Positions 43,091-56,152 of a DNA stretch of 64,000 nucleotides are shown here, piece by piece. A model generated the notes under the pieces. It had not been told where the DNA came from. It saw nothing but the letters and a program-made list of their open reading frames with translations, and did not search any database. Source of the DNA: Arenicellales bacterium (GTDB taxonomy: Bacteria > Pseudomonadota > Gammaproteobacteria > Arenicellales > JAHEKD01); the NCBI GenBank assembly GCA_028284225.1, contig JANQSD010000009.1:1-64000 (forward strand), given 5' to 3'. The translations under genes and the position numbers were made by a program. Position 1 is the first letter of the stretch. Every line of letters begins with the position of its first letter.

Positions 43091-44755
43091 ATGAGAAAAG
43101 ATCAACCAGAATCTGATGCAGTTGATTTAGTAAACAGTATTACTAATAAAGAAACTGCCAGTAAAGTCACCGATCTCAAGAATTGTTTTGAACAAGGCAA
43201 AATCACTCGACGAACGTTTATGTCAACAGCCCTGGCATTGGGTGTGTCGCTGACGACGGCTGCCGGGTTTGTTGACCGGGCAATGGCGGCCGCTCCAAAA
43301 AAAGGCGGTCGTTTTCGTATCGGTTTAACCGGCGGTGCCACCAGTGACACTCTCGATCCCGGCCAGATTCTGGATACTTATATGAATCATTTGCAGTTTG
43401 GGCAATTGCGAAATTGTTTAACTGAGGTTGATCCTAATGGAAACCTGATACCTGAACTGGCTGAGAGTTGGGAGTCCAGCCCTGATGCTAAAGTCTGGAC
43501 ATTTAAAATCCGTAAAGGTGTTGAGTTCCATAATGGCAAGACGATGGATTCTCAAGATGTAGTTGATTCATTGAATCATCATCTGGGCGAGGATTCTTCT
43601 TCTGCTGCAAAGGGTATTCTCACCGGGGTCAGTTCTGTTAAAGCCGATGGCGATAATGTCGTTGTCGAATTAAGCGGCGGTGATGCGGACTTCCCATTTG
43701 TAATGAGTGATTACCATATGCTCATTTGCCCTTCCAACGGTGACGGTACCATAGAGTGGCAGTCAGGTAATGGCACTGGGGGTTACATACTATCGGATCA
43801 TGAGTCTGGAGTACGCTCTTTTGCCAAACGTAATCCGAATTACTGGAAAGAAGGTTTCGCACATTTTGACGAAGTTGAAATTTTGCAAATTGCTGATGCC
43901 AGTGCGCGCACTAACGCTTTACGTACCGATACGATCGATTGTATGGATAATGTCGATTTAAAAACAGCAGGTTTGATGCAACGGGCTCCAGGTGTAAAAA
44001 TGGTGGTGGCAACCGGTAATAAACAAGTGACCTTACCTATGCGTACCGATACAGCTCCATTTGATAATAATGATGTTCGCCTAGCAATAAAGCATATTAT
44101 TAATCGTGAAGAATGGTTAGAGAAAATAGCTTTCGGCTATGGTGAAATCGGCAATGATAATCCAGTTGGGCCAGCTAATACTATGCGTGCGACGGCTGAT
44201 GAGTTACCGCAACGCGAGTACGACGTAGATAAAGCGAAGTATCATCTCAAACAAGCGGGAATGGAAAATTTGAAAGTCCAGTTTCATGCAGCTGAAACAG
44301 GTTTCGGCGGTGCATTGGATGCGGCTCAGCTAATGCGTGAGTCAGCTGCCCCGGCTGGTATTGACATTGAAATTGTGCGCGAGCCAGACGATGGTTATTG
44401 GTCCGATGTTTGGATGGTGAAACCTTGGGTGGCTTGTTATTGGAGCGGGCGCCCGACTGAGAACTGGATTTTTTCACAAATTTATGCAGCTGATGCGAGC
44501 TGGAATGATACGTTCTGGAAGCATGAACGTTTCAATGAATTATTACTTGCTGCCCGTGCTGAATTAGATCAGGCCAAACGCCGTGATATGTACATTGAAA
44601 TGCAACAGATCGTTAATAATGAAGGCGGTGTAGTATTGCCTCTGTTTTTAAGTGATGTTGCTGCAGTGACAGATAAAGTCGGTGTTCCAGATGTCATTGG
44701 TAACAACTGGAATCTTGATGGCCTGAAGAACGCTGAACGTTGGTGGTTTGTTTGA
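43091..44755 (+). CDS. Tat-exported ABC solute-binding protein (family 5, DppA-like)
   Basis: 554 residues. The signal contains TRRTFMSTALALGVSLTTAA, a twin-arginine (Tat) signal rather than a Sec one, preceded by about 40 polar residues. Mature part is of family 5: LTEVDPNGNLIPELAESWESS, VWTFKIRKGVEFHNGKTM. Family members bind peptides, nickel, glutathione or opines for ABC import. The Tat route implies folding before export, perhaps with a cofactor. No permease or ATPase gene is nearby, so the importer must be elsewhere. A hairpin follows. Confidence 0.9.
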   Translation: MRKDQPESDAVDLVNSITNKETASKVTDLKNCFEQGKITRRTFMSTALALGVSLTTAAGFVDRAMAAAPKKGGRFRIGLTGGATSDTLDPGQILDTYMNHLQFGQLRNCLTEVDPNGNLIPELAESWESSPDAKVWTFKIRKGVEFHNGKTMDSQDVVDSLNHHLGEDSSSAAKGILTGVSSVKADGDNVVVELSGGDADFPFVMSDYHMLICPSNGDGTIEWQSGNGTGGYILSDHESGVRSFAKRNPNYWKEGFAHFDEVEILQIADASARTNALRTDTIDCMDNVDLKTAGLMQRAPGVKMVVATGNKQVTLPMRTDTAPFDNNDVRLAIKHIINREEWLEKIAFGYGEIGNDNPVGPANTMRATADELPQREYDVDKAKYHLKQAGMENLKVQFHAAETGFGGALDAAQLMRESAAPAGIDIEIVREPDDGYWSDVWMVKPWVACYWSGRPTENWIFSQIYAADASWNDTFWKHERFNELLLAARAELDQAKRRDMYIEMQQIVNNEGGVVLPLFLSDVAAVTDKVGVPDVIGNNWNLDGLKNAERWWFV

Positions 44756-44778
44756 GTCTAAATTAGTTTATAACCATA

Positions 44779-44808
44779 TATCAGGAGGCAGTATTTTGTC
44801 TCCTGATA
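44779..44808. terminator. Hairpin between convergent genes
   Basis: TATCAGGAG, 12 bases, then CTCCTGATA. Exact 9-base arms, 24 bases after the solute-binding gene stop and 6 before the stop of the convergent peptidase gene. It lacks a strong T-run but fits a bidirectional terminator by position. Confidence 0.45.
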
Positions 44809-44813
44809 AGTGT

Positions 44814-45431
44814 TTATAAAATCAACACTTCTCCATCACTAAAGCATCTGTAAGAAATATTGTTACTTCGGCAATATTCGATTTCTTTTGAAATGTTTGA
44901 AGATTCCAGGTGATCGGAATTAAAGTGAGGCATAAAAGCGAAATCTAAAATACCAAGGCCATCCCAGATGGTCTGGGCTTGTTCTGAGTAGGGTAAATCA
45001 GTTGCATCATCCACAATTTGATAAGGTTTTAAACTAGGAGAAAGCACACAACAGCCAGCACTATAGCCATCATAAACGAAATTTTCGTCAAAATTATTTT
45101 TAATCAATATTTCATCCAAACCGCTTAGCTTCATTGCCTGGCGTAGCACAAACACATTGCCTCCGCTCACCCAAACGCCTGCCAACTTTTTAAGTTGGTT
45201 ATACAGATTATCGCTATAACCAAAAAAATTTTTTAAATCGATGATCTTAACATCTAAACTGATATTGTTTAATGATTTAATATCAGTCTTCATATGCTGT
45301 GAAACTCTTTCGGGATCTGCTGTAGAAAAATCAGTCGCATTAGGTATATAACCAATTGTCCCTGCTCTTACCATTTCCGTTAATCGATGAGCTTGATTGC
45401 CGAGTTTGAATGAGGAAAGATAAAATTTCAT
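44814..45431 (-). CDS. Peptidase S51 (dipeptidase E)-like protein
   Basis: 205 residues with the S51 nucleophile elbow DGYSAGCCVLSPSL and the preceding VWVSGGNVFVLRQAM, as in PepE-like serine hydrolases of the class I glutamine-amidotransferase-like fold. Dipeptidase E cleaves Asp-X dipeptides; cyanophycinase-type substrates are an alternative. Its ATG overlaps the decarboxylase stop (ATGA), so the two are coupled. Confidence 0.8.
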   Translation of the reverse strand: MKFYLSSFKLGNQAHRLTEMVRAGTIGYIPNATDFSTADPERVSQHMKTDIKSLNNISLDVKIIDLKNFFGYSDNLYNQLKKLAGVWVSGGNVFVLRQAMKLSGLDEILIKNNFDENFVYDGYSAGCCVLSPSLKPYQIVDDATDLPYSEQAQTIWDGLGILDFAFMPHFNSDHLESSNISKEIEYCRSNNISYRCFSDGEVLIL

Positions 45432-46828
45432 GGATTAGTTTGGGTGGAATTTCTTGCATTTACAAAGGCTTGAATAGTTCTGGAAATATCCTTTTGTGTG
45501 GTGGCCCAGGAACAAACACTGATTCTTATAACAGGTTCATCGAACCATTTAGAGCCACCGACCCAGCATTCACCAGATTGCTGAATATGTGTAATAATTT
45601 TATCTGTTAACTCTTGATCGCCACAGCTGACTAATATCTGATTAAAGACAACGTCATTGAGGATTTCAAACCCTTCAGCATTAAGTTCTTGACTGAGTTG
45701 AACGGCTCGTTGATGCAAGCCATAAACCAGATCATCGATGCCTTGTTTGCCCAAGTATTTTAGTGTCGCCCAAAGTTCAACTGCACGAGCACGGCGTGAC
45801 ATTTCCGGCGTATAGTGCATGCCATCTCGATTATCAGTGTAAACAATATAAGAACCACTGGCTTGCAGAGCGTTAACCAGAGCCTCTTTATCATTGCACA
45901 GAACAATACCGCTATCGTAAGGTGTGTTCAGGGTTTTATGGCCATCAACCGACCAGGAGTGAGCCTTGTTTATACCTTGGGTCAGGTGTCTTAATTGTTC
46001 TGCCGCTTCAGCCCATAAACCAAAGGCACCATCGATATGTACCCAACTACCTTGCTGATTAGCTCGATCGCAAATTTCATCAAACTCGTCAAACGATCCC
46101 GAATTAACATTTCCAGCTTGCAAAATAACAATGCAGTTTTGATTCAGCTCAGGTAATTGTGAGGTGATAATTCGGCCTTGATCATCAACATCAACCCATT
46201 CCACATTATCTATACCAAAACCCAGCAAAGCGATAGCCTTGACCACAGTGCCGTGGGTATGCCTCGAAGTTATGATTCTGATTTTCGGAGCACCTGAAAA
46301 TCCTTTGCGATTAATGTCCCAGTTATTGTTCTGAAAAATTCGGTATCGGGCGGCGGCCAGACCACACAGAATAGCCATTGAAGAACCGCTGACAAATCCG
46401 GCAACTGTACTTTGCGGCAGGTTGAATAATTCTTTGAGCCATTGCTCGCATACTTGTTCCAGTTTAGATACAACGGGTGAAGTGACATAAAGCGGGGTAT
46501 TCTGATCCCAGACATCATTTAACCATTTGGCAGCCAATGAGACCGGAATAATCCCGCCGTTCACCAGTCCGAAATATCGCCCACCAATTTGAGTTACCGT
46601 AGCCGGGGAGCCGTATTGATGAAGTTGTTGCAAAACATCTGTTGGATTACAAATTGCTTTAGGTAAGGCTTCATCGAAGCTCGAGAGGTTCTCGATGGCT
46701 TGCTCGGTTGGAAAAACGTTTCGCTCAAGCGCGTTATCGAGATAGTCAAAAGCTTTGTTTTGGGCCTGGCTTAAAAGTTCTTTTTGTTCCATTTGCTGGA
46801 ACATTTGATCGCGTAAAGTTTGATTCAT
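45428..46828 (-). CDS. PLP-dependent decarboxylase (group II, AADC-like)
   Basis: 466 residues. N-terminal GGRYFGLVNGGIIPVSLAAKWLNDVWDQN, then the Schiff-base lysine in SWSVDGHKTLNTPYDSGIV, and His/Asp PLP contacts in WVHIDGAFGLWAEA. The group II family decarboxylates aromatic amino acids, glutamate or aspartate; the TPYDSG tail is more like fold-related aminotransferase-like decarboxylases than like GadB. Substrate unknown. It is translationally coupled to the peptidase E-like gene. Confidence 0.82.
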   Translation of the reverse strand: MNQTLRDQMFQQMEQKELLSQAQNKAFDYLDNALERNVFPTEQAIENLSSFDEALPKAICNPTDVLQQLHQYGSPATVTQIGGRYFGLVNGGIIPVSLAAKWLNDVWDQNTPLYVTSPVVSKLEQVCEQWLKELFNLPQSTVAGFVSGSSMAILCGLAAARYRIFQNNNWDINRKGFSGAPKIRIITSRHTHGTVVKAIALLGFGIDNVEWVDVDDQGRIITSQLPELNQNCIVILQAGNVNSGSFDEFDEICDRANQQGSWVHIDGAFGLWAEAAEQLRHLTQGINKAHSWSVDGHKTLNTPYDSGIVLCNDKEALVNALQASGSYIVYTDNRDGMHYTPEMSRRARAVELWATLKYLGKQGIDDLVYGLHQRAVQLSQELNAEGFEILNDVVFNQILVSCGDQELTDKIITHIQQSGECWVGGSKWFDEPVIRISVCSWATTQKDISRTIQAFVNARNSTQTNP

Positions 46829-46953
46829 AGATACGAGGTTTTGTTGTGCAGGTCATAGTGTGTTTAATGTGCCACACATTTAAAACCACAACATTAGAAA
46901 CTTTGGGGGCAGCTTGGGTTGACGATAATAATTGCGGAGCGGATCTTGTAAGA

Positions 46954-47796
46954 TTATCTGGCGCCTGAATTGACAGTTTGATCGTCAGGTTTTTTTCGCC
47001 CCCAGAACAACTCCCGCACGGACTCGCTGTTTTTGGCATCAGGTTGCTCGCTATAACACAGTACAGGTACAAGACGTGGAGTTTTGCCACTCACGCGTGT
47101 GACTCGATGAATAGTTTGGTTGCCGCCGAAAATAAGCAGGGTACCGGGTGTGAAAGGCAGTTCGGTTACGCCCTCTCGATTGCCGTTTAACACGCCTTCA
47201 ACCAGCTGCTGTTCGTTCTCCAGGCCGCGGATTTTGGGCAGGTATTCAAAACTGCCTCCGCTATCCGGTGATTGCAGCATTAGTGTTACCGTGAATTCCG
47301 ATTCGTCAAAATGCCAGCCATGCTCCCCGCCGTCAACAAACACATTTATTGAGCAGGCGCCAAAGGGATCAGCGAATCGATGAAAAGATTGTTTGCCCAG
47401 TACTGCACCAATAAAGTTTTTTAACGGGTCCCATAAATACAACAGCTTTAAACTGGAATTCTCAGCAATCAGATCGTAGGCTACCGAACCAACATAAGTT
47501 TCTTCTTGATGTTGATGTGCTTTATCTTCGGGTAGATTTTCATCGTCATTCGTAAGATAAGCATTATGAGTGCTTTTGCAAAAATAGGCTTGGGAGGAAT
47601 AAGCATTTGCCTCTGCAGCTAATGTCTGCAAAGCATTTGGTAATATAAATTCAGGTAATTCACAAAGTCCTGTTTCAATAAAGTTTTTTTGGCATCGGTT
47701 AACGAGCTGTTTGTATTCAGCTGAATCTGTATCTGAAATAGGGTAGTAATTGAGATTAACGATTTGTTCAACTGGTAATGATTGATGCTGTGCCAT
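46954..47796 (-). CDS. Non-haem Fe(II)/2OG-type dioxygenase, ArpA-like
   Basis: 280 residues. Iron ligands are visible as His162 and Asp164 (HGWHFDESE) and His230 (NQTIHRVTRV), with Arg241 placed to hold 2-oxoglutarate. The segment GACSINVFVDGGEHGW recalls ArpA/HalD-type hydroxylases or halogenases of amino acids, but the Asp is kept, so hydroxylation rather than chlorination is expected. It is 11 bases from a second oxygenase gene, on the same strand. Confidence 0.78.
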   Translation of the reverse strand: MAQHQSLPVEQIVNLNYYPISDTDSAEYKQLVNRCQKNFIETGLCELPEFILPNALQTLAAEANAYSSQAYFCKSTHNAYLTNDDENLPEDKAHQHQEETYVGSVAYDLIAENSSLKLLYLWDPLKNFIGAVLGKQSFHRFADPFGACSINVFVDGGEHGWHFDESEFTVTLMLQSPDSGGSFEYLPKIRGLENEQQLVEGVLNGNREGVTELPFTPGTLLIFGGNQTIHRVTRVSGKTPRLVPVLCYSEQPDAKNSESVRELFWGRKKPDDQTVNSGAR

Positions 47797-47807
47797 ATTT
47801 AACTCCT

Positions 47808-48590
47808 CTAGATAAGTGGAAACCAGTCCTCTCTCAATTTTTGCCCTTCTTTCATATCGTGGCCAGGAAAAGGAGGCGATGTTCTACCTGGACGCTCAGT
47901 ATATCGAGCATCATCACCGACTAAACGCAAAGAAAACGCACGTCGCCTTGTTGATGAAAGATTGCCGCGGGCACCATGAACAGTTTTGTAATGAAAAGCG
48001 ACCGCATCGCCCGGTTCCATCTGCCATTCAAGGATTTGATATTTTCCGGGTTCACTATCCGGGTCAGGAATAGGTAGGTAGTCGTCCTCATTATGGTAGA
48101 AATTTTCTTCCGATAACCAGCGTATCGGTAATACTGGTTTTTCCCATAGATGTGATCCGGCAATTAAGCGTAGTGAAGCCTCCTTAACCGGATCAACAGG
48201 AATCCAGAAACTTACGGTTTGCTCGCCTTCTACAAAATAATAGGGCGCATCCTGGTGCCATGGTGTTGGTTTTGACGTACCGGGTTCTTTAACCAGTACA
48301 TGATCGTGAAATACCTGCACGGTATTAGAGCGCATCAATTTTGCTGCCGCTTCACGTGCCGGAGAGTTGTGGATGAAATCACTAAAATATTCGATTCGCT
48401 GCCAGTTACAGTAATCATCAAAAAACCGTCCCTGTTCACCTTCTTTTAAATTCTCGGCAGCGTATTCACCGGGATCGTTCATATTCTGGTCAATGCCTTT
48501 AGCAAGGATATCCGTCCACTGCTTAAATAGTCCGGGAAGAAAAACAGCGCCGTGTTGGTCGTAATAGCTTATTTGCTCTGTCGTTACCAT
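47808..48590 (-). CDS. Phytanoyl-CoA dioxygenase (PhyH) family oxygenase
   Basis: 260 residues with the PhyH facial triad His112, Asp114 (WHQDAPYY) and His205 (KTVHGARGN), plus RRRAFSLR as 2OG-binding region. PhyH enzymes hydroxylate acyl chains, ectoine, or small amines; members in betaine clusters often demethylate or hydroxylate. Shorter than EctD, so ectoine hydroxylase is unlikely. Paired with the ArpA-like gene in one operon. Divergent direction to the BetI-like gene across the FAD oxidase. Confidence 0.85.
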   Translation of the reverse strand: MVTTEQISYYDQHGAVFLPGLFKQWTDILAKGIDQNMNDPGEYAAENLKEGEQGRFFDDYCNWQRIEYFSDFIHNSPAREAAAKLMRSNTVQVFHDHVLVKEPGTSKPTPWHQDAPYYFVEGEQTVSFWIPVDPVKEASLRLIAGSHLWEKPVLPIRWLSEENFYHNEDDYLPIPDPDSEPGKYQILEWQMEPGDAVAFHYKTVHGARGNLSSTRRRAFSLRLVGDDARYTERPGRTSPPFPGHDMKEGQKLREDWFPLI

Positions 48591-48710
48591 TTCTTTTTAC
48601 CTGTTTTACAAAGTTATAACAAACAAATAAATGGTGTACACAAAAAACTGGTCCAACACAACGAGTTTTGCTGTGAGTTAACAATGTGTGCGATTAATAC
48701 TTTCATTGAG

Positions 48711-50030
48711 TTATACACCCGGCCCGAGCTGGATTTTAGATCCGTCAAAGAAACGGCTGAGTCTGAACGGTGTCAAATCCTCGATTGGGGTCTGGCCGGT
48801 AGCAAGGTCAGCAATGGCATAACCAGCAGCCGGCCCTAAACCGAAGCCGTGGCCGCTTAGTCCGGTGGCAATGTAAAATCCGGATAATGCAGAGGTTTCT
48901 GAAAGAATTGGAACCGCATCGGGAGAGGCCTCAATCATGCCCGCCCAGCTTTCCAGTAGTGGAACATCAGCAAGTTCAGGGTGGTATTTCGCTATATTGG
49001 CTTGTAATTCAGCAAGAATTTTAGTTGAAGGTTCGGGGTCCAGAACACGAATTTTTTCAAACGGTGATGTTTCATCCAGGTCCCAATTATTGGGCGTAAA
49101 CATGTTATCCAAAAATGAACCGTTGACTCGCAATCGAATATCACGATGATTCTCAATAAAACTGGGTAAAAATTTTCGGAAATAACGAAGCGTATTCGGC
49201 ATTAGGAAATGTTCCAATGCACTGCCATGAGCAATGGTATAGCCGTCATCTAGCCTGCGGCGTATGGCAACAGGTGCTGCCCAGGCTTCACCATCGAGTA
49301 TGTTGGGTGCAGGTGCAGTTCGTGCCACTGTACCTTTGACTTGAAGCTGAGGTACATCTATTCCGAGATTCCGGCAAAACATCGATGTCCAGGCGCCTGC
49401 GGCACAGATTATGGTGCCGGTTTGTATAGAACCTTTTTCAGTGACGACATTATTAACCCGTCCGGCTTTGGTTTCTATACCTCTAAGTGCGCACCGTGTT
49501 GAAATTGTCGCACCTTCCCGCTGCGCTGCGGCTGCGATGGCCGGGACGGCTCTGGCAGGTTCTGCTCTACCGTCACTGGCGGTAAATAAAGCACCGTGCC
49601 ATTTATGTGACAATCCAGGTAAGGTTTGCTTTAGGTCTGAGGTGTCAAGTATTTGTGTGTCAAGATTGAATTGGTGGGCAGTGTCCAGCCAGCCGGCCAA
49701 AAAATCTAATTCCTTTTGATCTCTGGCCAAGTATGAGGACCCTGTTTGCCTAAATCCTACATCTTCCCCAAGTTCATTTTGGAAAGATTGCCAGATTTGA
49801 AGGCTTTGCATCATGAGAGGGAGTTCACGGGGGTCGCGGCCCTGCTGACGAACCCAGCCCCAGTTTCTACTTGATTGTTCGCCGGCAATTCGGCCTTTTT
49901 CGCACAGGGTTACTGAGACCCCTCGTTTTGCAAGCCTATAAGCTGCTGCGCAACCAACAATACCGCCGCCGATGATAACAACATCAGCACTCGCTGGGAC
50001 TGGTGTGTTATCTGTTTGTGTAGTAACCAC
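48711..50030 (-). CDS. FAD-dependent amine oxidoreductase (DadA/DAO family)
   Basis: 439 residues. N-terminal dinucleotide motif VVIIGGGIVGCAAAYRLAKRG (about 17-37), central region RDPRELPLMM, and the C-terminal ATGLSGHGFGLGPAAG FAD contact. The DAO fold oxidises secondary or tertiary amines such as glycine, sarcosine or other N-methyl amino acids, or D-amino acids. It is divergent from the BetI-like gene with a perfect palindrome between them, so it is a likely member of that regulon. Confidence 0.87.
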   Translation of the reverse strand: MVTTQTDNTPVPASADVVIIGGGIVGCAAAYRLAKRGVSVTLCEKGRIAGEQSSRNWGWVRQQGRDPRELPLMMQSLQIWQSFQNELGEDVGFRQTGSSYLARDQKELDFLAGWLDTAHQFNLDTQILDTSDLKQTLPGLSHKWHGALFTASDGRAEPARAVPAIAAAAQREGATISTRCALRGIETKAGRVNNVVTEKGSIQTGTIICAAGAWTSMFCRNLGIDVPQLQVKGTVARTAPAPNILDGEAWAAPVAIRRRLDDGYTIAHGSALEHFLMPNTLRYFRKFLPSFIENHRDIRLRVNGSFLDNMFTPNNWDLDETSPFEKIRVLDPEPSTKILAELQANIAKYHPELADVPLLESWAGMIEASPDAVPILSETSALSGFYIATGLSGHGFGLGPAAGYAIADLATGQTPIEDLTPFRLSRFFDGSKIQLGPGV

Positions 50031-50066
50031 TTTCGAATTTATAAATCAGGTATAAGGTTGATCGAT

Positions 50067-50090
50067 TATAATGAACAATTGTTCATTATA
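50067..50090. promoter_or_regulatory. Perfect 24-base palindromic operator (BetI-like)
   Basis: The half-site TATAATGAACAA is followed directly by its exact inverted copy TTGTTCATTATA, giving a perfect 24-base palindrome. It lies 36 bases upstream of the FAD amine oxidase start and 61 bases before the TetR start, between divergent genes. An AATGAAC/GTTCATT relative stands before the DMGDH gene. The length and the GAACAATTGTTC-like core fit a TetR/BetI operator. Confidence 0.8.
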
Positions 50091-50151
50091 AAATACTCAA
50101 CTATAATGATTTTTCGAGTATTGGGTTACTAGAAAATTAAAGTTTTAGAGC

Positions 50152-50799
50152 ATGAGTAAAGTAAAGCGCAAACCTAAAAGGCTTGTTAATAAGCCACTGA
50201 ACAGGCAAAAGCTTATACAGGCGACACTGGATTCTATTGTCGATGTAGGCATTGAGAATACATCGGTGACGGAAATACTGGACAAAGCAAAATTATCCAG
50301 GGGGATGATTAATCTTCATTTTGATAACAAAGAATCTCTATTGCTTGAAGCATTGAAGTTTTATACCGACATCTATAACCAGACATTTTATAAACAACTG
50401 GAATCAGTTAAAACGGCTTCTCCTGCATTTAAAATGCAAACGATGGTTGCGCATGACCTTGATATTTGTGTGTTAAATCGTGATTATGTGGTGATTTGGT
50501 ATGAGTTTAGAGGTAAAGCCAGGACTAATGAACTTTACCGGCAATACACGGATACAAGATATAAGCGTTTTCGTGATACTTACTATTCGATTTGTACAGA
50601 GTTAGTTAAAGCAGAACCATTGCAGGGCGTTTCCAGTAAGTCAATCGCGCATGGTTTAATTACGATGATTGAAGGCATGTGGATAGATTTTTACTTACAC
50701 AGTGATTCTTTCAAAAGGTCTGCAGCTAAAAAAACATTCTTTATTTATTTGACTGCATTATTTCCTAGCCAGTTTACTCATAAGGGCGCACTCAAGTAG
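50152..50799 (+). CDS. TetR-family regulator, BetI-like
   Basis: 215 residues. HTH at about 20-65: LNRQKLIQATLDSIVDVGIENTSVTEILDKAKLSRGMINLHFDNKESLLLEAL. The C-terminal domain resembles BetI in length and in AHGLITMIEGMWIDFYL. BetI represses choline/glycine-betaine genes and releases on choline; whether this one senses choline or another quaternary amine is unknown. It sits between the FAD amine oxidase and the DMGDH-MttB operon, each with a similar palindrome in front. Confidence 0.85.
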   Translation: MSKVKRKPKRLVNKPLNRQKLIQATLDSIVDVGIENTSVTEILDKAKLSRGMINLHFDNKESLLLEALKFYTDIYNQTFYKQLESVKTASPAFKMQTMVAHDLDICVLNRDYVVIWYEFRGKARTNELYRQYTDTRYKRFRDTYYSICTELVKAEPLQGVSSKSIAHGLITMIEGMWIDFYLHSDSFKRSAAKKTFFIYLTALFPSQFTHKGALK

Positions 50800-50842
50800 T
50801 AGTCATACACTATAGGAGTCTCTGAATAAGTATTTTATCGTC

Positions 50843-50862
50843 ACTCCCGCGCAGGCGGGAGT
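50843..50862. repeat. Palindromic REP-like element
   Basis: ACTCCCGC, GCAG, GCGGGAGT: 8-base arms with a 4-base loop, inside TCACTCCCGCGCAGG...GGGAGTCCAG. This is a widespread intergenic palindrome type in proteobacterial chromosomes. It sits 43 bases after the BetI-like gene and may also act as a terminator. Confidence 0.7.
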
Positions 50863-50959
50863 CCAGGAAAATCAAAGGGTTATAGATTTTGATTTTTGCA
50901 AGAATGATATTGATGAGAGGTTCCTATAAATAATTTTGTAAGAATAAAAACAAATTGAT

Positions 50960-50977
50960 AATGAACAATCGTTCATT
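50960..50977. promoter_or_regulatory. Second BetI-like operator, before the DMGDH gene
   Basis: AATGAAC, AATC, GTTCATT: perfect 7-base arms. It repeats the core of the 24-base palindrome at 50067-50090, 50 bases upstream of the DMGDH-like start. The pair of sites strongly suggests one regulator for both operons. Confidence 0.75.
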
Positions 50978-51027
50978 TAAAATATCAACGTCTGTTGATA
51001 GCTAAATGCTGACGGAGAAAAGATAAA

Positions 51028-53454
51028 GTGACACTGGATAAAAACACAGCTCGAGTAGTTATTATTGGTGGCGGTGTCGTCGGTTGTAGTATTTTATACC
51101 ACTTGACTAAGGCCGGTTGGCAGGACGTGGTGTTGCTGGAGCGCCAGGAATTGACCAGCGGTTCTTCCTGGCATGCAGCGGGTAGCTTATTCGCGTTGAC
51201 TGCTCCTTCAAATGTCAGTGCATTACAAAAATACACATTGGATTTATATCCGCAACTGGAGATAGAAAGCGGTCAAAGTTGTGGCTTTCATCTAACCGGT
51301 GAGCTGTGGCTGGCAGAGTCACAGGAAGATTACCAATCTATGCAGGTTATTCGCGCACAAGGTTTACGCAATGACATACATGCTGAATTTATTTCCATGC
51401 AAGAAGCGACAGACAGGGCGCCTATATTAAATACCGAAGGCTTAAAGGCGGTGATGTATGAGCCGGATGCGGGTTTTTGCGATCCGGCCAGTGTGACCAA
51501 CGCTTTTGCCATCGCAGCCAGAAATTTGGGAGCAACGATTTATCGACACACGCCTGTAATTGAAACTAATCAGCTGGGCAATGGTGAATGGCAGGTTGTG
51601 ACTGAAAGCGGGATAATTAACTGTGAATACCTGGTTAATGCCACGGGTTTATGGGGTCGTGAGGTAGCAGGGTTAGCAGGTATTACCCTGCCATTAATAC
51701 CGGTGGAGCATCATTATCTGGTAACCGAAGAAATCCCCGAAATCGCCCAAATGAAAAACAAAATTCCGTCAATGGCGATTAATAGTGTCAATGTTTATTC
51801 CCGCCAGGAAGCTAACGGATTGCTATTGGGAGCGTATGAAGCAAACTGTCATTTTTGGTCTGAACAGGGCACACCTGAAGATTTTGGCCATGAACTACTG
51901 CCCAATGATTTAGAACGCATGGAGACTAATTTTGCTAAAGCGGTTGAACGCATGCCTTGTCTGGCGACGGCGGGAATTAAAAATATTATTAATGGCCCGA
52001 TGATTTTTTCGCCTGATCTCGGCCCTCTAATCGGTCCTTATCCCGGCCTTAAAAATTACTATTGTGCCAATGGAGTAATGACAGGATTTAACCAGGCTCC
52101 CGGTATTGGCAAAGTCTTAGCAAACTGGATTACAGAAGGTGATCCGGGAATGGATGTGAATGTCTGGCATGTGGGCCGGTTCGGTGATTATGCTGCCAAG
52201 CAGTACACTAAACCAAGAGCCAAGTATTTTTACGAGAATCGATCACAGTTTGTCTATCCCCATCAGGACTTTGATGTGGGCCGTCCGGTTCGCAAACGTC
52301 CTATCTATGATTTGCAACAACAATCCGGTGCTGTCTTCGCCGAGTATTGTGGTTGGGAAGATCCGGTTTATTTTGCCCGTAATCCAGCTGAAAAAACTCC
52401 GACTTATTCTTTTACCAGGGGCAGCTGGTTTGATCCGGTTCAGGAAGAAGTACTAACTACACATAATGGTGTGGGGTTATTTGATTTCTCCACTTTTGCC
52501 AAATACCTGATTGAAGGCGAGCAGGCATTTAATTGGTTGGATCACCTGTGTGCGGGCCGAATGCCTGACCAAACTGGGGCAATCAAGCTTTGTCCGATGT
52601 TGAATCATAGCGGCAAGCTGATTGGCGATTTGACAGTAACAAAACTCGCTGATAATACGTTTTTACTCATTAGTTCAGGGAGTATGCAGCACATTCATCT
52701 AGGCTGGTTTAAACAAAACTTAAATGACAAAGATGTTTCAATTAAGGATTTAACGGATGAATTTTGCGGCTTACACATAGCGGGTCCTAGCTCTGCTGAT
52801 TTACTGGTAGAAGCGATGGGTGATAGTGGCTTGCTTGATAATTTTCCATTCTTGACTTCGAAAAAACTGCACATAAAAGATTGTGACGCGGTCATCGCTT
52901 TGCGAGTTTCATTTACCGGTGAGACGGGGTTTGAACTTTATATGCCTGAGCACTTTCAGCTATCTGTGTATCAGGCATTATTGGGTGCAGGTAAAACGTT
53001 TGGACTAAAGCAGGTCGGCTCTCATGCTTTGATGTGCATGCGTCTTGAAAAAAGTTTTCCTAGTTGGGGATTGGAGCTATCACCTGATTATTTTCCTCAG
53101 CAGTGCGGTTTGCAGCGATTTATAGACGCTAATAAAGCAGGTTTTATTGGTCACGGTGCAATTGCTTCGAATTCCAATTTATCTGGTTTAGAGCAGCTTG
53201 TTACCTTTGAAATTAATTCACCAGATCGTGATGCATTTGGAGGTGAACCTGTTTTTTTGAATGATCAACTGGCCGGATACATTAGCTCCGGTGGCTACGG
53301 TTACCGGGTGAATAAGAACCTAGCCTTAGGTTATCTCGGTGCTGAGTATCTGAATCAACAGGGCTTTGAAATTGAACTGGTGGGTGAGCGCTTTCCAGCT
53401 AAGGTATTAGCACGTTCACCGTTTGATCCTTCCAATCTAAGAATGAAGGTTTGA
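51028..53454 (+). CDS. Dimethylglycine dehydrogenase/sarcosine dehydrogenase-like (FAD + GcvT)
   Basis: 808 residues, starting GTG with GGAGAA eight bases upstream. N-terminal FAD-binding motif VVIIGGGVVGCSILYHL (about 9-25), the covalent-FAD histidine in SSWHAAGSL, then a DAO domain to about 380 and a GcvT/aminomethyltransferase half (about 430-808) that binds folate. These enzymes oxidatively demethylate dimethylglycine or sarcosine and pass the methyl as methylene-THF. It is five bases from the MttB gene, so they are coupled. Which N-methyl amine it uses is not decided by sequence. Confidence 0.87.
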   Translation: MTLDKNTARVVIIGGGVVGCSILYHLTKAGWQDVVLLERQELTSGSSWHAAGSLFALTAPSNVSALQKYTLDLYPQLEIESGQSCGFHLTGELWLAESQEDYQSMQVIRAQGLRNDIHAEFISMQEATDRAPILNTEGLKAVMYEPDAGFCDPASVTNAFAIAARNLGATIYRHTPVIETNQLGNGEWQVVTESGIINCEYLVNATGLWGREVAGLAGITLPLIPVEHHYLVTEEIPEIAQMKNKIPSMAINSVNVYSRQEANGLLLGAYEANCHFWSEQGTPEDFGHELLPNDLERMETNFAKAVERMPCLATAGIKNIINGPMIFSPDLGPLIGPYPGLKNYYCANGVMTGFNQAPGIGKVLANWITEGDPGMDVNVWHVGRFGDYAAKQYTKPRAKYFYENRSQFVYPHQDFDVGRPVRKRPIYDLQQQSGAVFAEYCGWEDPVYFARNPAEKTPTYSFTRGSWFDPVQEEVLTTHNGVGLFDFSTFAKYLIEGEQAFNWLDHLCAGRMPDQTGAIKLCPMLNHSGKLIGDLTVTKLADNTFLLISSGSMQHIHLGWFKQNLNDKDVSIKDLTDEFCGLHIAGPSSADLLVEAMGDSGLLDNFPFLTSKKLHIKDCDAVIALRVSFTGETGFELYMPEHFQLSVYQALLGAGKTFGLKQVGSHALMCMRLEKSFPSWGLELSPDYFPQQCGLQRFIDANKAGFIGHGAIASNSNLSGLEQLVTFEINSPDRDAFGGEPVFLNDQLAGYISSGGYGYRVNKNLALGYLGAEYLNQQGFEIELVGERFPAKVLARSPFDPSNLRMKV

Positions 53455-53458
53455 ATCA

Positions 53459-54976
53459 ATGGTTAGCCGTCGCCGTCAAGCACAACGTCGAGAAAAGGAT
53501 GTACTGAAACAGCTTCCTTTTCAAGAGTTGTCAATCAACTTTGACCCGGTACGTTTGCTGGACGCAGAGCAAATTGAAAAGATCCATGATGCTTCACTCA
53601 GTATTTTGGAAACCACAGGCATGCGTATTGATGATGCTAAAACCCGGGAAATTTTTAAACAGGCTGGCGCTGAAATCGATCAGACTGAAAATATAGTGAA
53701 ATTTGATCGTGGTTTGATCATGGAAAGTATTTCTACTGTGCCGTCGACATTCACTTTGCATGGTCGAGATAAAGGCAAGCAACTCACAATTGGTGGTAAT
53801 CATATCGTTTTTAGCGCTGTCGGCGGGCCGCCGTTTGCCAGCGATCTTGACCAGGGCCGGCGTGCCGGAAACCATGCTGACATGTGTAACTTCCTTAAAT
53901 TAGTTCAGGCGCTGAACATTATTCACATGGAGGGTGGTTGTCCGATTGAGCCTACTGATTTACCCGTGCAAACACGGCATCTGGATATTTATTTGGCCAG
54001 TTGTCTTTACTTAGACAAACCGTGGCAATCACAAATGATTGGTGCTGAGCGCGTACATGATGCAATCGAGATGGCTTGTATCGCTTCGCAAATTAGCCGC
54101 GAAGAACTAGCTGCTAAACCACAATTTTTATCTGTCACCAATACCAATACACCGTTAGTGTTGGATGAGCCGTTAGCACAGGGGATCATTGAAATGGCGA
54201 AAGCCGGTCAAGCAGTTTGTGTCACGCCATTTACCTTAAGCGGCGCGATGACACCAGTCACACTCGCATCGTCATTGGCGATGCAAAATGCAGAAAGCCT
54301 GGTTGGCCTGGCTTTAACCCAATTGGTTAATTCGGGTGTGCCGGCTTGTTATGGTTCATTTACTTCCAACGTCGACATGAAATCAGGATCACCGGCGTTT
54401 GGCACCCCCGAATACGCACAAGCAGCGAATATCAGCGGTCAACTTGCGCGCCGATATAACGTCCCCTGGCGTTCGAGTAATGCCACGGCATCCTGTGCGG
54501 TCGATGCCCAATCAGCTTACGAGTCACAAATGTCAATCTGGGGAGCGGTATTGGGACATGCGAATTTATTGAACCATGCGGCAGGTTGGCTTGAAGGCGG
54601 ATTAGTGGCGTCGTTTGAGAAATTAATAGTTGATGCGGAAATGTTGCAAATGATCGCTTCATATTTACAACCGTTCGATGTTTCCAACGATGCCTTAGGC
54701 CTGGATACGGTTGATGAAGTTGGGCCAGGCGGTCATTTTTTCGGCACAGAACATACACTGGAACGATTCGAAACAGCGTTTTATTCGCCACTAGTCTCCG
54801 ACTGGCAAAACTACGAAAACTGGCGTGACTTAGGCAGTGTTGACACCGCAGGACGAGCTAATCACTTATGGAAAAAGCTGTTAGCAGATTATCAACGCCC
54901 GGCTATGGACCAAGCTGTTGAGGAAGAGTTGAATGCTTATGTGACTAAACGCAAGGAGCAAATAAATAATCTATAG
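53459..54976 (+). CDS. Trimethylamine methyltransferase (MttB)-family protein, non-pyrrolysine
   Basis: 505 residues. The TIM-barrel MttB pattern is clear: HDASLSILETTGMRIDDAKTREIFKQAGAEI at the N-terminus, and QMSIWGAVLGHANLLNHAAGWLEGGLVASFEKLIVDAEMLQMI. The frame has no internal TAG, so it is a non-pyrrolysine member such as glycine-betaine (MtgB)-like or related quaternary-amine methyltransferases. These transfer a methyl to a corrinoid protein; no MtbC-like corrinoid or MtbA-type partner is in the window. Coupled to the DMGDH-like gene. Confidence 0.85.
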   Translation: MVSRRRQAQRREKDVLKQLPFQELSINFDPVRLLDAEQIEKIHDASLSILETTGMRIDDAKTREIFKQAGAEIDQTENIVKFDRGLIMESISTVPSTFTLHGRDKGKQLTIGGNHIVFSAVGGPPFASDLDQGRRAGNHADMCNFLKLVQALNIIHMEGGCPIEPTDLPVQTRHLDIYLASCLYLDKPWQSQMIGAERVHDAIEMACIASQISREELAAKPQFLSVTNTNTPLVLDEPLAQGIIEMAKAGQAVCVTPFTLSGAMTPVTLASSLAMQNAESLVGLALTQLVNSGVPACYGSFTSNVDMKSGSPAFGTPEYAQAANISGQLARRYNVPWRSSNATASCAVDAQSAYESQMSIWGAVLGHANLLNHAAGWLEGGLVASFEKLIVDAEMLQMIASYLQPFDVSNDALGLDTVDEVGPGGHFFGTEHTLERFETAFYSPLVSDWQNYENWRDLGSVDTAGRANHLWKKLLADYQRPAMDQAVEEELNAYVTKRKEQINNL

Positions 54977-55066
54977 AAATATAGACCTCGGTCAGCCTAA
55001 GATTAGTCCAAAGTGGCGCCTAAGTAATCAGTGGCAGATTCTCAGAATGCCCCTCTAGGGCATTGC

Positions 55067-55240
55067 TTAGCGGGTGTCGTTTGGAAGTCGACGTGACATG
55101 GTTTGCGGGCGCAAGCGTGCTGCTAAAAATACGACTAATCCTGTAGCGCAGATTACGGCTAGATAGACGAACGATGTTTGATACCCCAAAGCGTGGGTAT
55201 CGCCCAATAACTGAGCAACAAACCAATATGCATGATGCAT
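55067..55240 (-). pseudogene. Possible remnant of a transporter C-terminus
   Basis: A 57-codon minus-strand frame reads MHHAYWFVAQLLGDTHALGYQTSFVYLAV and then a hydrophobic helix ending FLAARLRPQTMSRR. It resembles the last membrane helix and tail of a drug-resistance MFS transporter (DHA2-like). Nothing of the other helices is found nearby, so it is a relict or a small membrane protein. Third-party comparison would decide. Confidence 0.4.
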
Positions 55241-55267
55241 TTCACGATTTTACTCGGGAGATTAAAT

Positions 55268-56152
55268 TCACACTTGTGCTGTTTTCTCTAACCAATTACT
55301 GAAAGCGATAACTTTTTTCAATTTGGAATTTTGATTTGGGGTAACTATCCAGTAATTAGTTCCCAGGTTTACATCCAAAGAGAGCACTTGAATTAAATGA
55401 CCACGCTCAATATCATCTTTGACTAAAGCTTCATTTGCAAGCGCAATTCCTTGGCCACTTAAGGCGGCTTGCAACACTATATTTGAACTTGAGTATCTTG
55501 GACCACGATTAAGATCAATGCCTTTTATATTATTAGCCTTTAACCATACAGCCCACTGTGCTTTTGGATCCTGATCATGAAGCAAAGGATAGTGAAGAAG
55601 GTCTTCTGGGGTGGTTATTTCAGGTCCAGTTTCAATCAGGTTGGGACTGCAAACAGGGATCAGGCGGTCTTGCATCAATGGCCTGCTATGATATTGTGGC
55701 CAAGGACCTGTCCCCATGCGAATAGCTACATCAATACCTGGTTGAGCAAATTGAGTCAATTGTTGTTCTAATACGATCCAAACTTCTATGTTTGGATGTT
55801 CTGCCCTAAATGATGGCAACCTTGCCATCAACCATCTCTCTGCAAATGAATGAGTTGTTGCAACACCTATCACGTTAGATGATCGTTGCTGTTGCAAGTT
55901 AACAGTGCCCTCTTCAATAAGATCAAGGGCTGCTGAACAGGTTTTTAGATATGCTGCTCCTGCTGACGTTAACTGTAAGGATCGTCCATCTCGTTCGAAT
56001 AATTTGACTCCTAACCAATGCTCGAGTAATTTGACCTGTCGACTCACCGCACCGTGCGATACGCACAACTCCTGACCTGCATTGCTGATACTCGTTAATC
56101 GGGCTGCGGCTTCAAATGTCCGAAGTGCATTTAACGACGGTAAATGACGCAT
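55268..56152 (-). CDS. GcvA-type LysR regulator
   Basis: 294 residues beginning MRHLPSLNALRTFEAAARLTSISNAGQELCVSHGAVSRQVKLLEHWLGV, the GcvA-subfamily LysR start with HTH at about 20-50, then effector domain. Members regulate glycine cleavage, beta-lactamase and many small catabolic genes. Divergent from the GST-like/LysE pair at 56.3 kb. A degenerate relative lies at 10.0-10.2 kb. Confidence 0.88.
   Translation of the reverse strand: MRHLPSLNALRTFEAAARLTSISNAGQELCVSHGAVSRQVKLLEHWLGVKLFERDGRSLQLTSAGAAYLKTCSAALDLIEEGTVNLQQQRSSNVIGVATTHSFAERWLMARLPSFRAEHPNIEVWIVLEQQLTQFAQPGIDVAIRMGTGPWPQYHSRPLMQDRLIPVCSPNLIETGPEITTPEDLLHYPLLHDQDPKAQWAVWLKANNIKGIDLNRGPRYSSSNIVLQAALSGQGIALANEALVKDDIERGHLIQVLSLDVNLGTNYWIVTPNQNSKLKKVIAFSNWLEKTAQV

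Follow-up and report, generated by a model that had tools for sequence, protein, structure and literature searches.

A candidate TetR-controlled module for serial demethylation of a quaternary amine in an Arenicellales bacterium

The window analysed here (a 64,000-nucleotide stretch of DNA from an Arenicellales bacterium) carries genes for an FAD amine oxidase, a TetR regulator, a dimethylglycine dehydrogenase (DMGDH)-like enzyme and an MttB methyltransferase side by side, which raises the question of whether one regulator governs them as a pathway and of which amine that pathway would consume. The locus is likely to encode repressor-controlled serial demethylation of an unassigned quaternary amine, which is probably a bulkier betaine than glycine betaine.

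Genes of the locus and its paired operators

Analysis of the ORFs with Pfam placed the four genes in the families named by the initial annotation. These are a DAO-type FAD amine oxidase (48711-50030, minus strand; Pfam, NCBIfam and solved-structure matches), a BetI-type TetR regulator with TetR_N and TetR_C_6 domains (50152-50799, plus strand; Pfam, NCBIfam and recognition helix), a DMGDH-like enzyme with an FAD half and a folate-binding GcvT half (51028-53454, plus strand; Pfam and a match to 5l46) and a non-pyrrolysine methyltransferase of the MttB superfamily (53459-54976, plus strand; PF06253, 623 bits). The last two had been described as overlapping genes; the DMGDH stop codon was found to end at 53454 and the MttB ATG to stand at 53459, leaving a gap of 4 nt, and the pair very probably forms a single transcription unit. 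Two Fe/2-oxoglutarate oxygenases identified with Pfam, one of the PhyH family (47808-48590, minus strand) and one HalD-like (46954-47796, minus strand), are possible downstream members of the leftward unit, with gaps of 120 bp between the PhyH and amine oxidase genes and 11 bp between the HalD-like and PhyH genes, their co-transcription being putative. The region leftward past the FAD oxidase that holds them (44814-48590) also encodes a group II PLP decarboxylase and an S51 peptidase, and a PLP decarboxylase likewise follows an MttB gene in a relative (L203).

The DMGDH-like protein possesses the DAO, FAO_M, GCV_T and GCV_T_C domains (Pfam) of a dimethylglycine dehydrogenase and aligns with human DMGDH (5l46) over residues 5-795 (529 bits). 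It shares with the mitochondrial and bacterial dimethylglycine dehydrogenases/oxidases (5l46, 1pj5) a two-part FAD and folate-binding build over nearly its full length, but differs from them in being paired with MttB, and its activity on dimethylglycine is putative. For the FAD oxidase, the best solved match was the membrane L-amino acid deaminase 5fjm (237 bits), followed by sarcosine oxidase; of the NCBIfam models listed, none gave a score reaching its curated cut-off (best 147.6 of 257 bits), with neither the sarcosine oxidase nor the L-amino acid deaminase equivalog being reached. Placing this oxidase by synteny failed, as none of its orthologues found in relatives lies beside an MttB gene, and it is thus the operator described below that ties it to the pathway.

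Two palindromes were identified at the locus, neither being assigned to a strand. Operator 1, TTATAATGAACAATTGTTCATTATAA, lies between the amine oxidase gene and tetR (50066-50091), where a perfect palindrome of 24 bases had been reported; the palindrome is present and perfect, with a length of 26 bp (13-bp arms) and a core of AATGAACAATTGTTCATT at 50070-50087. Operator 2, AATGAACAATCGTTCATT, is situated upstream of DMGDH-MttB (50960-50977) and reads AATGAAC-AATC-GTTCATT, as had also been claimed, its 7-base arms being the same as those of operator 1. The two make up a direct repeat of 25 nt (88% identical), with the copies 890 bp apart. The exact pattern AATGAACNNNNGTTCATT (AATGAAC-N4-GTTCATT) occurs at two sites in the 4.09 Mb genome, both at this locus and none elsewhere, with approximately 0.03 sites expected by chance genome-wide from base composition. 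Any exact site was found in only 5 of 369 genomes searched at class level, and the source genome is the only one with two.

Within positions 44700-55400, twenty sigma-70-like sites were detected, a number not above the shuffled expectation. Only two reached a 10/12 consensus match, and each of them has an operator lying between its -35 and -10 hexamers. The leftward candidate promoter, TTTATA-16-TATAAT (50065-50092, minus strand, towards the amine oxidase), has operator 1 across its spacer, while the spacer of the rightward candidate, TTGATA-17-TAAAAT (50955-50983, plus strand, towards DMGDH-MttB), is filled by operator 2; a rightward promoter for tetR is weak by consensus. A repressor that obstructs RNA polymerase would be positioned in this way, and the regulator is predicted to act by repression. 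A palindrome between the regulator and its divergent gene is repeated at the other target, each copy overlapping a promoter-like site, with binding predicted for both. The proposal that three transcription units are joined in a single TetR regulon is supported by these findings, given that the operator pair is unique in the genome and that tetR diverges from the first palindrome.

TetR proteins often control efflux, and the link of the window TetR to both sites is a predicted one, so the palindromes could serve a different regulator, or the window TetR could be an efflux or stress regulator with DMGDH-MttB incidentally near. With one site upstream of tetR, another in the DMGDH-MttB promoter region and none in the rest of the genome, and with the same gene-operator association recurring in Rhizobiales, we regard this as very improbable in comparison to a TetR dedicated to the demethylation genes. 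Between tetR and operator 2, a GC-rich hairpin resembling a REP element, ACTCCCGCGCAGGCGGGAGT, was also observed (50843-50862), the surrounding gap being AT-rich.

The regulator and its counterparts in Rhizobiales

The window TetR scored above the TetR_C_6 cut-off of Pfam, and BetI models were its best NCBIfam matches, but it stayed below both BetI equivalog cut-offs, with 86.9 bits where 118 are required and 79.3 bits where 201.3 are required. The earlier description of the protein as BetI-like consequently stands at the domain level and goes no further, the missed cut-offs speaking against BetI itself. In comparison to BetI, a repressor of choline uptake and oxidation, it has the same TetR_N and TetR_C_6 layout and is a probable autoregulated repressor, while it differs in its scores, in the lack of bet genes nearby and in its operator, GAAC-N4-GTTC, which we take to be unlike BetI boxes. 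A true, choline-responsive BetI governing a module for choline or betaine turnover would account for the TetR_C_6 domain and for BetI models heading the NCBIfam matches; yet both models fell under their cut-offs and no choline or betaine-aldehyde dehydrogenase gene was found among the Pfam-scanned neighbours, and we give this explanation very little credence beside that of a BetI-type repressor of demethylation genes.

A second TetR of the source genome, assigned to the BetI type from its 28% identity to the window TetR, has the helix region SRTLVVFHF, and the half-site of its palindrome is another one, ACTGACT. Its gene (L137, 7461-10230, G000:C21) is divergent from that of a TMADH-like enzyme, with the palindrome around TTGACTGAC-TTGT-TAGTCAGTAA in an 88-bp gap. 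Since this regulator with a different helix has a different palindrome, the core GAAC-RATY-GTTC is not generic to BetI-type TetRs.

Eighty genomes were searched, comprising the source genome, one other of its genus and the remainder from its order, and no intact close orthologue of the window TetR was found among them, so that operator footprinting within the order is impossible. The sole close TetR relative (L134, 2047-2554), from the one further genome of the genus, is frameshifted, apparently a decaying gene, and its site has 3 mismatches.

Counterparts were identified in Mesorhizobium and related Rhizobiales, which carry a TMADH-like-MttB operon, a TetR_C_6 regulator and an operon of an S15-type hydrolase and a dipeptide-type ABC transporter. 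The palindrome TTGTTGWAC-RATY-GTTCAACAA is situated directly before the TMADH-like-MttB operon in six loci, the copy in one of the loci (L051) having two mismatches in the outer arm, and a second copy precedes the hydrolase-transporter operon in several. Allowing up to 2 mismatches, a search of eight whole genomes (5.5-7.5 Mb each) found the motif at 14 sites, 13 of which lie within 30 kb of the MttB gene; the reversed control pattern gave one match in the same eight genomes. The core GAAC-RATY-GTTC is common to these palindromes and the window operators, and the Mesorhizobium recognition helix reads SRGLINHHF against SRGMINLHF in the window TetR, although similarity between the window TetR and the regulators beside operator-bearing Rhizobiales loci is modest (42-53 bits). 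The Mesorhizobium clusters (L043, L047, L049, L050, L062) therefore resemble the window locus in having a sister-clade MttB, a BetI-type TetR, the operator core and an oxidative tertiary-amine enzyme as partner. They differ from it in that this partner is of the FMN/OYE type and not DMGDH, in their operator flanks, and in the presence of the S15-type hydrolase and dipeptide ABC transporter. That a third Rhizobiales operator (L208, 17175) precedes a porin gene was not confirmed, the gene product having no Pfam match. The occurrence of sister MttBs beside a BetI-type TetR and a same-core operator nearly confined to the cluster is a new observation; the open-access literature, to which the search was restricted with subscription journals outside its scope, yielded no description of an MttB-linked TetR.

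Oxidative partners of MttB and a single corrinoid hub

The pairing of DMGDH with a non-pyrrolysine MttB had been considered a non-standard unit, a view which did not hold, as the pairing recurs in many Proteobacteria. At least one oxidative tertiary-amine demethylase was found within 3 kb at 47 of 87 related MttB loci, by which uniqueness is ruled out; this is not an unbiased rate, as the loci were picked by similarity to the window MttB. The partners were DMGDH (33 loci), a TMADH-like flavoenzyme (11) and a Rieske oxygenase (4), with genes in relatives being called using a simple script. The source genome itself encodes 14 MttBs and 14 FAO_M-bearing DMGDH-like proteins, and four of the MttB genes have an FAO_M gene no more than 4 kb away (0.38 expected, P = 0.0005). 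One of its other clusters (L028, 6651-12778, G000:C1) comprises a DAO gene, an MttB gene and a different TetR divergent from DMGDH, with no shared operator.

In a tree of 106 MttBs, obtained by a quick search that leaves many branches open, the window protein falls into a group (SH-aLRT 95) with Roseovarius and EL53 proteins whose genes are preceded by DMGDH, and with alphaproteobacterial proteins encoded near a TMADH-like enzyme. The homologues closest to the window DMGDH adjoin near relatives of the window MttB (L201, 920 bits; L071, 884; Roseovarius L055, 855; EL53 L059, 827), the MttB at L201 being 55% identical to that of the window and its best match in the 80 genomes. Gene order is tandem as in the window at L055 and L059, convergent at L071 and divergent at L201; the order has been rearranged but the company kept, which points to a functional link between DMGDH and MttB. 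Sister MttBs of Mesorhizobium and others have a TMADH/histamine-dehydrogenase-like flavoenzyme in place of DMGDH, and this swap between unrelated oxidative families supports oxidative demethylation of a tertiary amine as the partner's role.

MttB would require a corrinoid partner, and the source genome was found to encode one corrinoid protein with a B12-binding_2 domain (PF02607) and one RACo activase in the same cluster. This cluster is on contig C22 (L021, G000:C22:79000-98500), separate from the locus, and consists of genes for the corrinoid protein (L021, 7839-8543), DUF1638, PF13769, an MTHFR-family (MetF-like) protein, a pterin-binding MtgD-like methyltransferase and RACo, near folD; apparently it serves 14 MttBs in one genome. 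No MetH was seen in the source genome (96% completeness), the sole B12-binding_2 match being the hub protein, and MetH is probably absent because genomes that carry MetH are picked up by the PF02607 search as well, E. coli having given a match in the control.

A study of Ruegeria (pomeroyi) describes aerobic glycine-betaine demethylation by an MtgBCD route, with a split methionine synthase, followed by demethylation of dimethylglycine (DMG), in which one corrinoid protein, MtgC, serves two reactions, including methionine synthesis (Mausz et al. 2025, PMC12478193). The mtgC, mtgD, metF2, ramA and DUF1638 genes of such an aerobic set are all present in the source genome, where no MetH was seen. 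The two systems are alike in their MttB-type first step, single corrinoid protein, MtgD-like pterin enzyme, MetF2-like reductase, and RamA and DUF1638 genes, in having later oxidative demethylation genes often nearby, and in that no MetH-type B12-binding_2 protein was seen (PMC12478193). The order of DMGDH and MttB action proposed here fits that route, so the pairing is not as unusual as had been suggested; its logic matches the published pathway. The source genome differs in having 14 MttBs on one hub, a window MttB that lacks the predicted betaine aromatics (described below) and a module with its own TetR and operator pair, which was not found described in the sections of PMC12478193 that the search covered.

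The location of the hub on another contig, and the need for one corrinoid protein to serve 14 MttBs, could be taken to indicate that the window MttB bypasses the hub, using another methyl acceptor or working independently of corrinoid. To our knowledge, all MttB members of known activity are corrinoid-dependent. Moreover, of the 49 genomes among the 80 that encode at least 5 MttBs, 28 have exactly one PF02607 gene, and one MtgC serves two reactions in Ruegeria (PMC12478193); a bypass is accordingly held to be a very unlikely alternative to methyl transfer through the shared hub.

Candidate substrate and proposed pathway

The window MttB gave a full-length match to PF06253 (PF06253/COG5598 superfamily; 623 bits, residues 4-502). 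Its reading frame is uninterrupted and free of in-frame amber codons, and the column that holds pyrrolysine in archaeal MttB (7xcl) is Thr, confirming it as a non-pyrrolysine member. It is about equally close to S. meliloti 4yyc (343 bits) and to MtgB (323 bits). In MtgB, residues Y94, N199, R309, H345 and F353 were predicted by docking to form the glycine-betaine pocket (PMC6855144). The window protein retains the polar residues as N228, R338 and H373, with Gly at the positions of both aromatics, Y94 and F353. It thus resembles MtgB of Desulfitobacterium (2qne/9yce) in family, near full-length alignment and the predicted-pocket N, R and H, but differs in the two Gly residues, in an aerobic-type gene setting and in the coupled DMGDH. 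Four paralogues of the source genome (C12, C13, C14a and C21a) keep the pocket Tyr, one of them grouping with 4yyc, and these appear to be better candidates for glycine betaine.

The main competing explanation is a plain glycine-betaine pathway, in which MttB would be MtgB, dimethylglycine would be the substrate of DMGDH, and sarcosine that of the FAD oxidase. The chemistry fits stepwise, a pathway with a similar hub has been shown in Ruegeria (PMC12478193), and N228, R338 and H373 match the predicted MtgB pocket. In addition, Comamonadaceae MttB-DMGDH operons continue into genes with weaker matches to DAO and DMGDH references, whose sizes fit sarcosine oxidase subunits. The loss of both aromatics, set against the Tyr kept by the four paralogues, argues the other way, as does the placement of the window MttB in another clade, one neighboured by dipeptide-type ABC transporters (SBP_bac_5, oligo_HPY); the FAD oxidase, furthermore, is closer to L-amino acid deaminase than to sarcosine oxidase. 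The plain pathway is therefore judged rather unlikely, glycine betaine being a possible but not favoured substrate of the window MttB. The transporters near its clade suggest a larger molecule, and the earlier proposal of a quaternary amine for which no pathway is assigned is supported.

Under the favoured reading of a bulkier betaine, TetR would sit on both operators when substrate is absent, shutting off the amine oxidase to the left and DMGDH-MttB to the right, and would probably control its own gene too. Binding of the substrate or an early product would release it. MttB would then move one methyl group from the quaternary nitrogen to the single hub corrinoid protein, from which the MtgD-like and MetF-like partners would carry it to tetrahydrofolate and onward. 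DMGDH would oxidatively demethylate the leftover tertiary amine, with its folate half taking up the second carbon to give methylene-tetrahydrofolate. The secondary amine would be left to the FAD oxidase as the last step, so that both C1 streams would end on tetrahydrofolate. As a more tentative generalization, which may well prove too broad, BetI-type TetRs with GAAC-N4-GTTC-core operators could mark MttB modules by which Alpha- and Gammaproteobacteria degrade a bulky quaternary amine, as yet unassigned; the oxidative second step (DMGDH, TMADH-like or Rieske) would be interchangeable, and one corrinoid hub per cell would be shared by all.

Such a scheme would turn the annotation "trimethylamine methyltransferase", carried by up to about 16 proteins per genome in the order (counts being capped at 16, so that the highest may be larger), into a testable model. 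In it, one corrinoid hub is fed by many MttBs, each admitting its own substrate and often accompanied by an oxidative enzyme that removes the following methyl group. The regulator and its operator would provide a direct handle on the inducing substrate, and with that substrate a new step in the turnover of nitrogen osmolytes or alkaloids could be named.

Naming the substrate from gene neighbours led to no agreement on one compound, with a lyase and deacetylase in Roseovarius and the S15-type hydrolase in Mesorhizobium. At the Roseovarius locus (L055, 9001-14243), the genes after that of MttB encode an aromatic amino acid lyase, which scores below the HutH cut-off, together with a DoeB-like deacetylase and a Rieske protein resembling GbcA, a possible substrate clue. 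Elsewhere in the source genome (L024, 4158-9523, G000:C21), a ureohydrolase gene of the agmatinase family lies between two clustered MttB genes.
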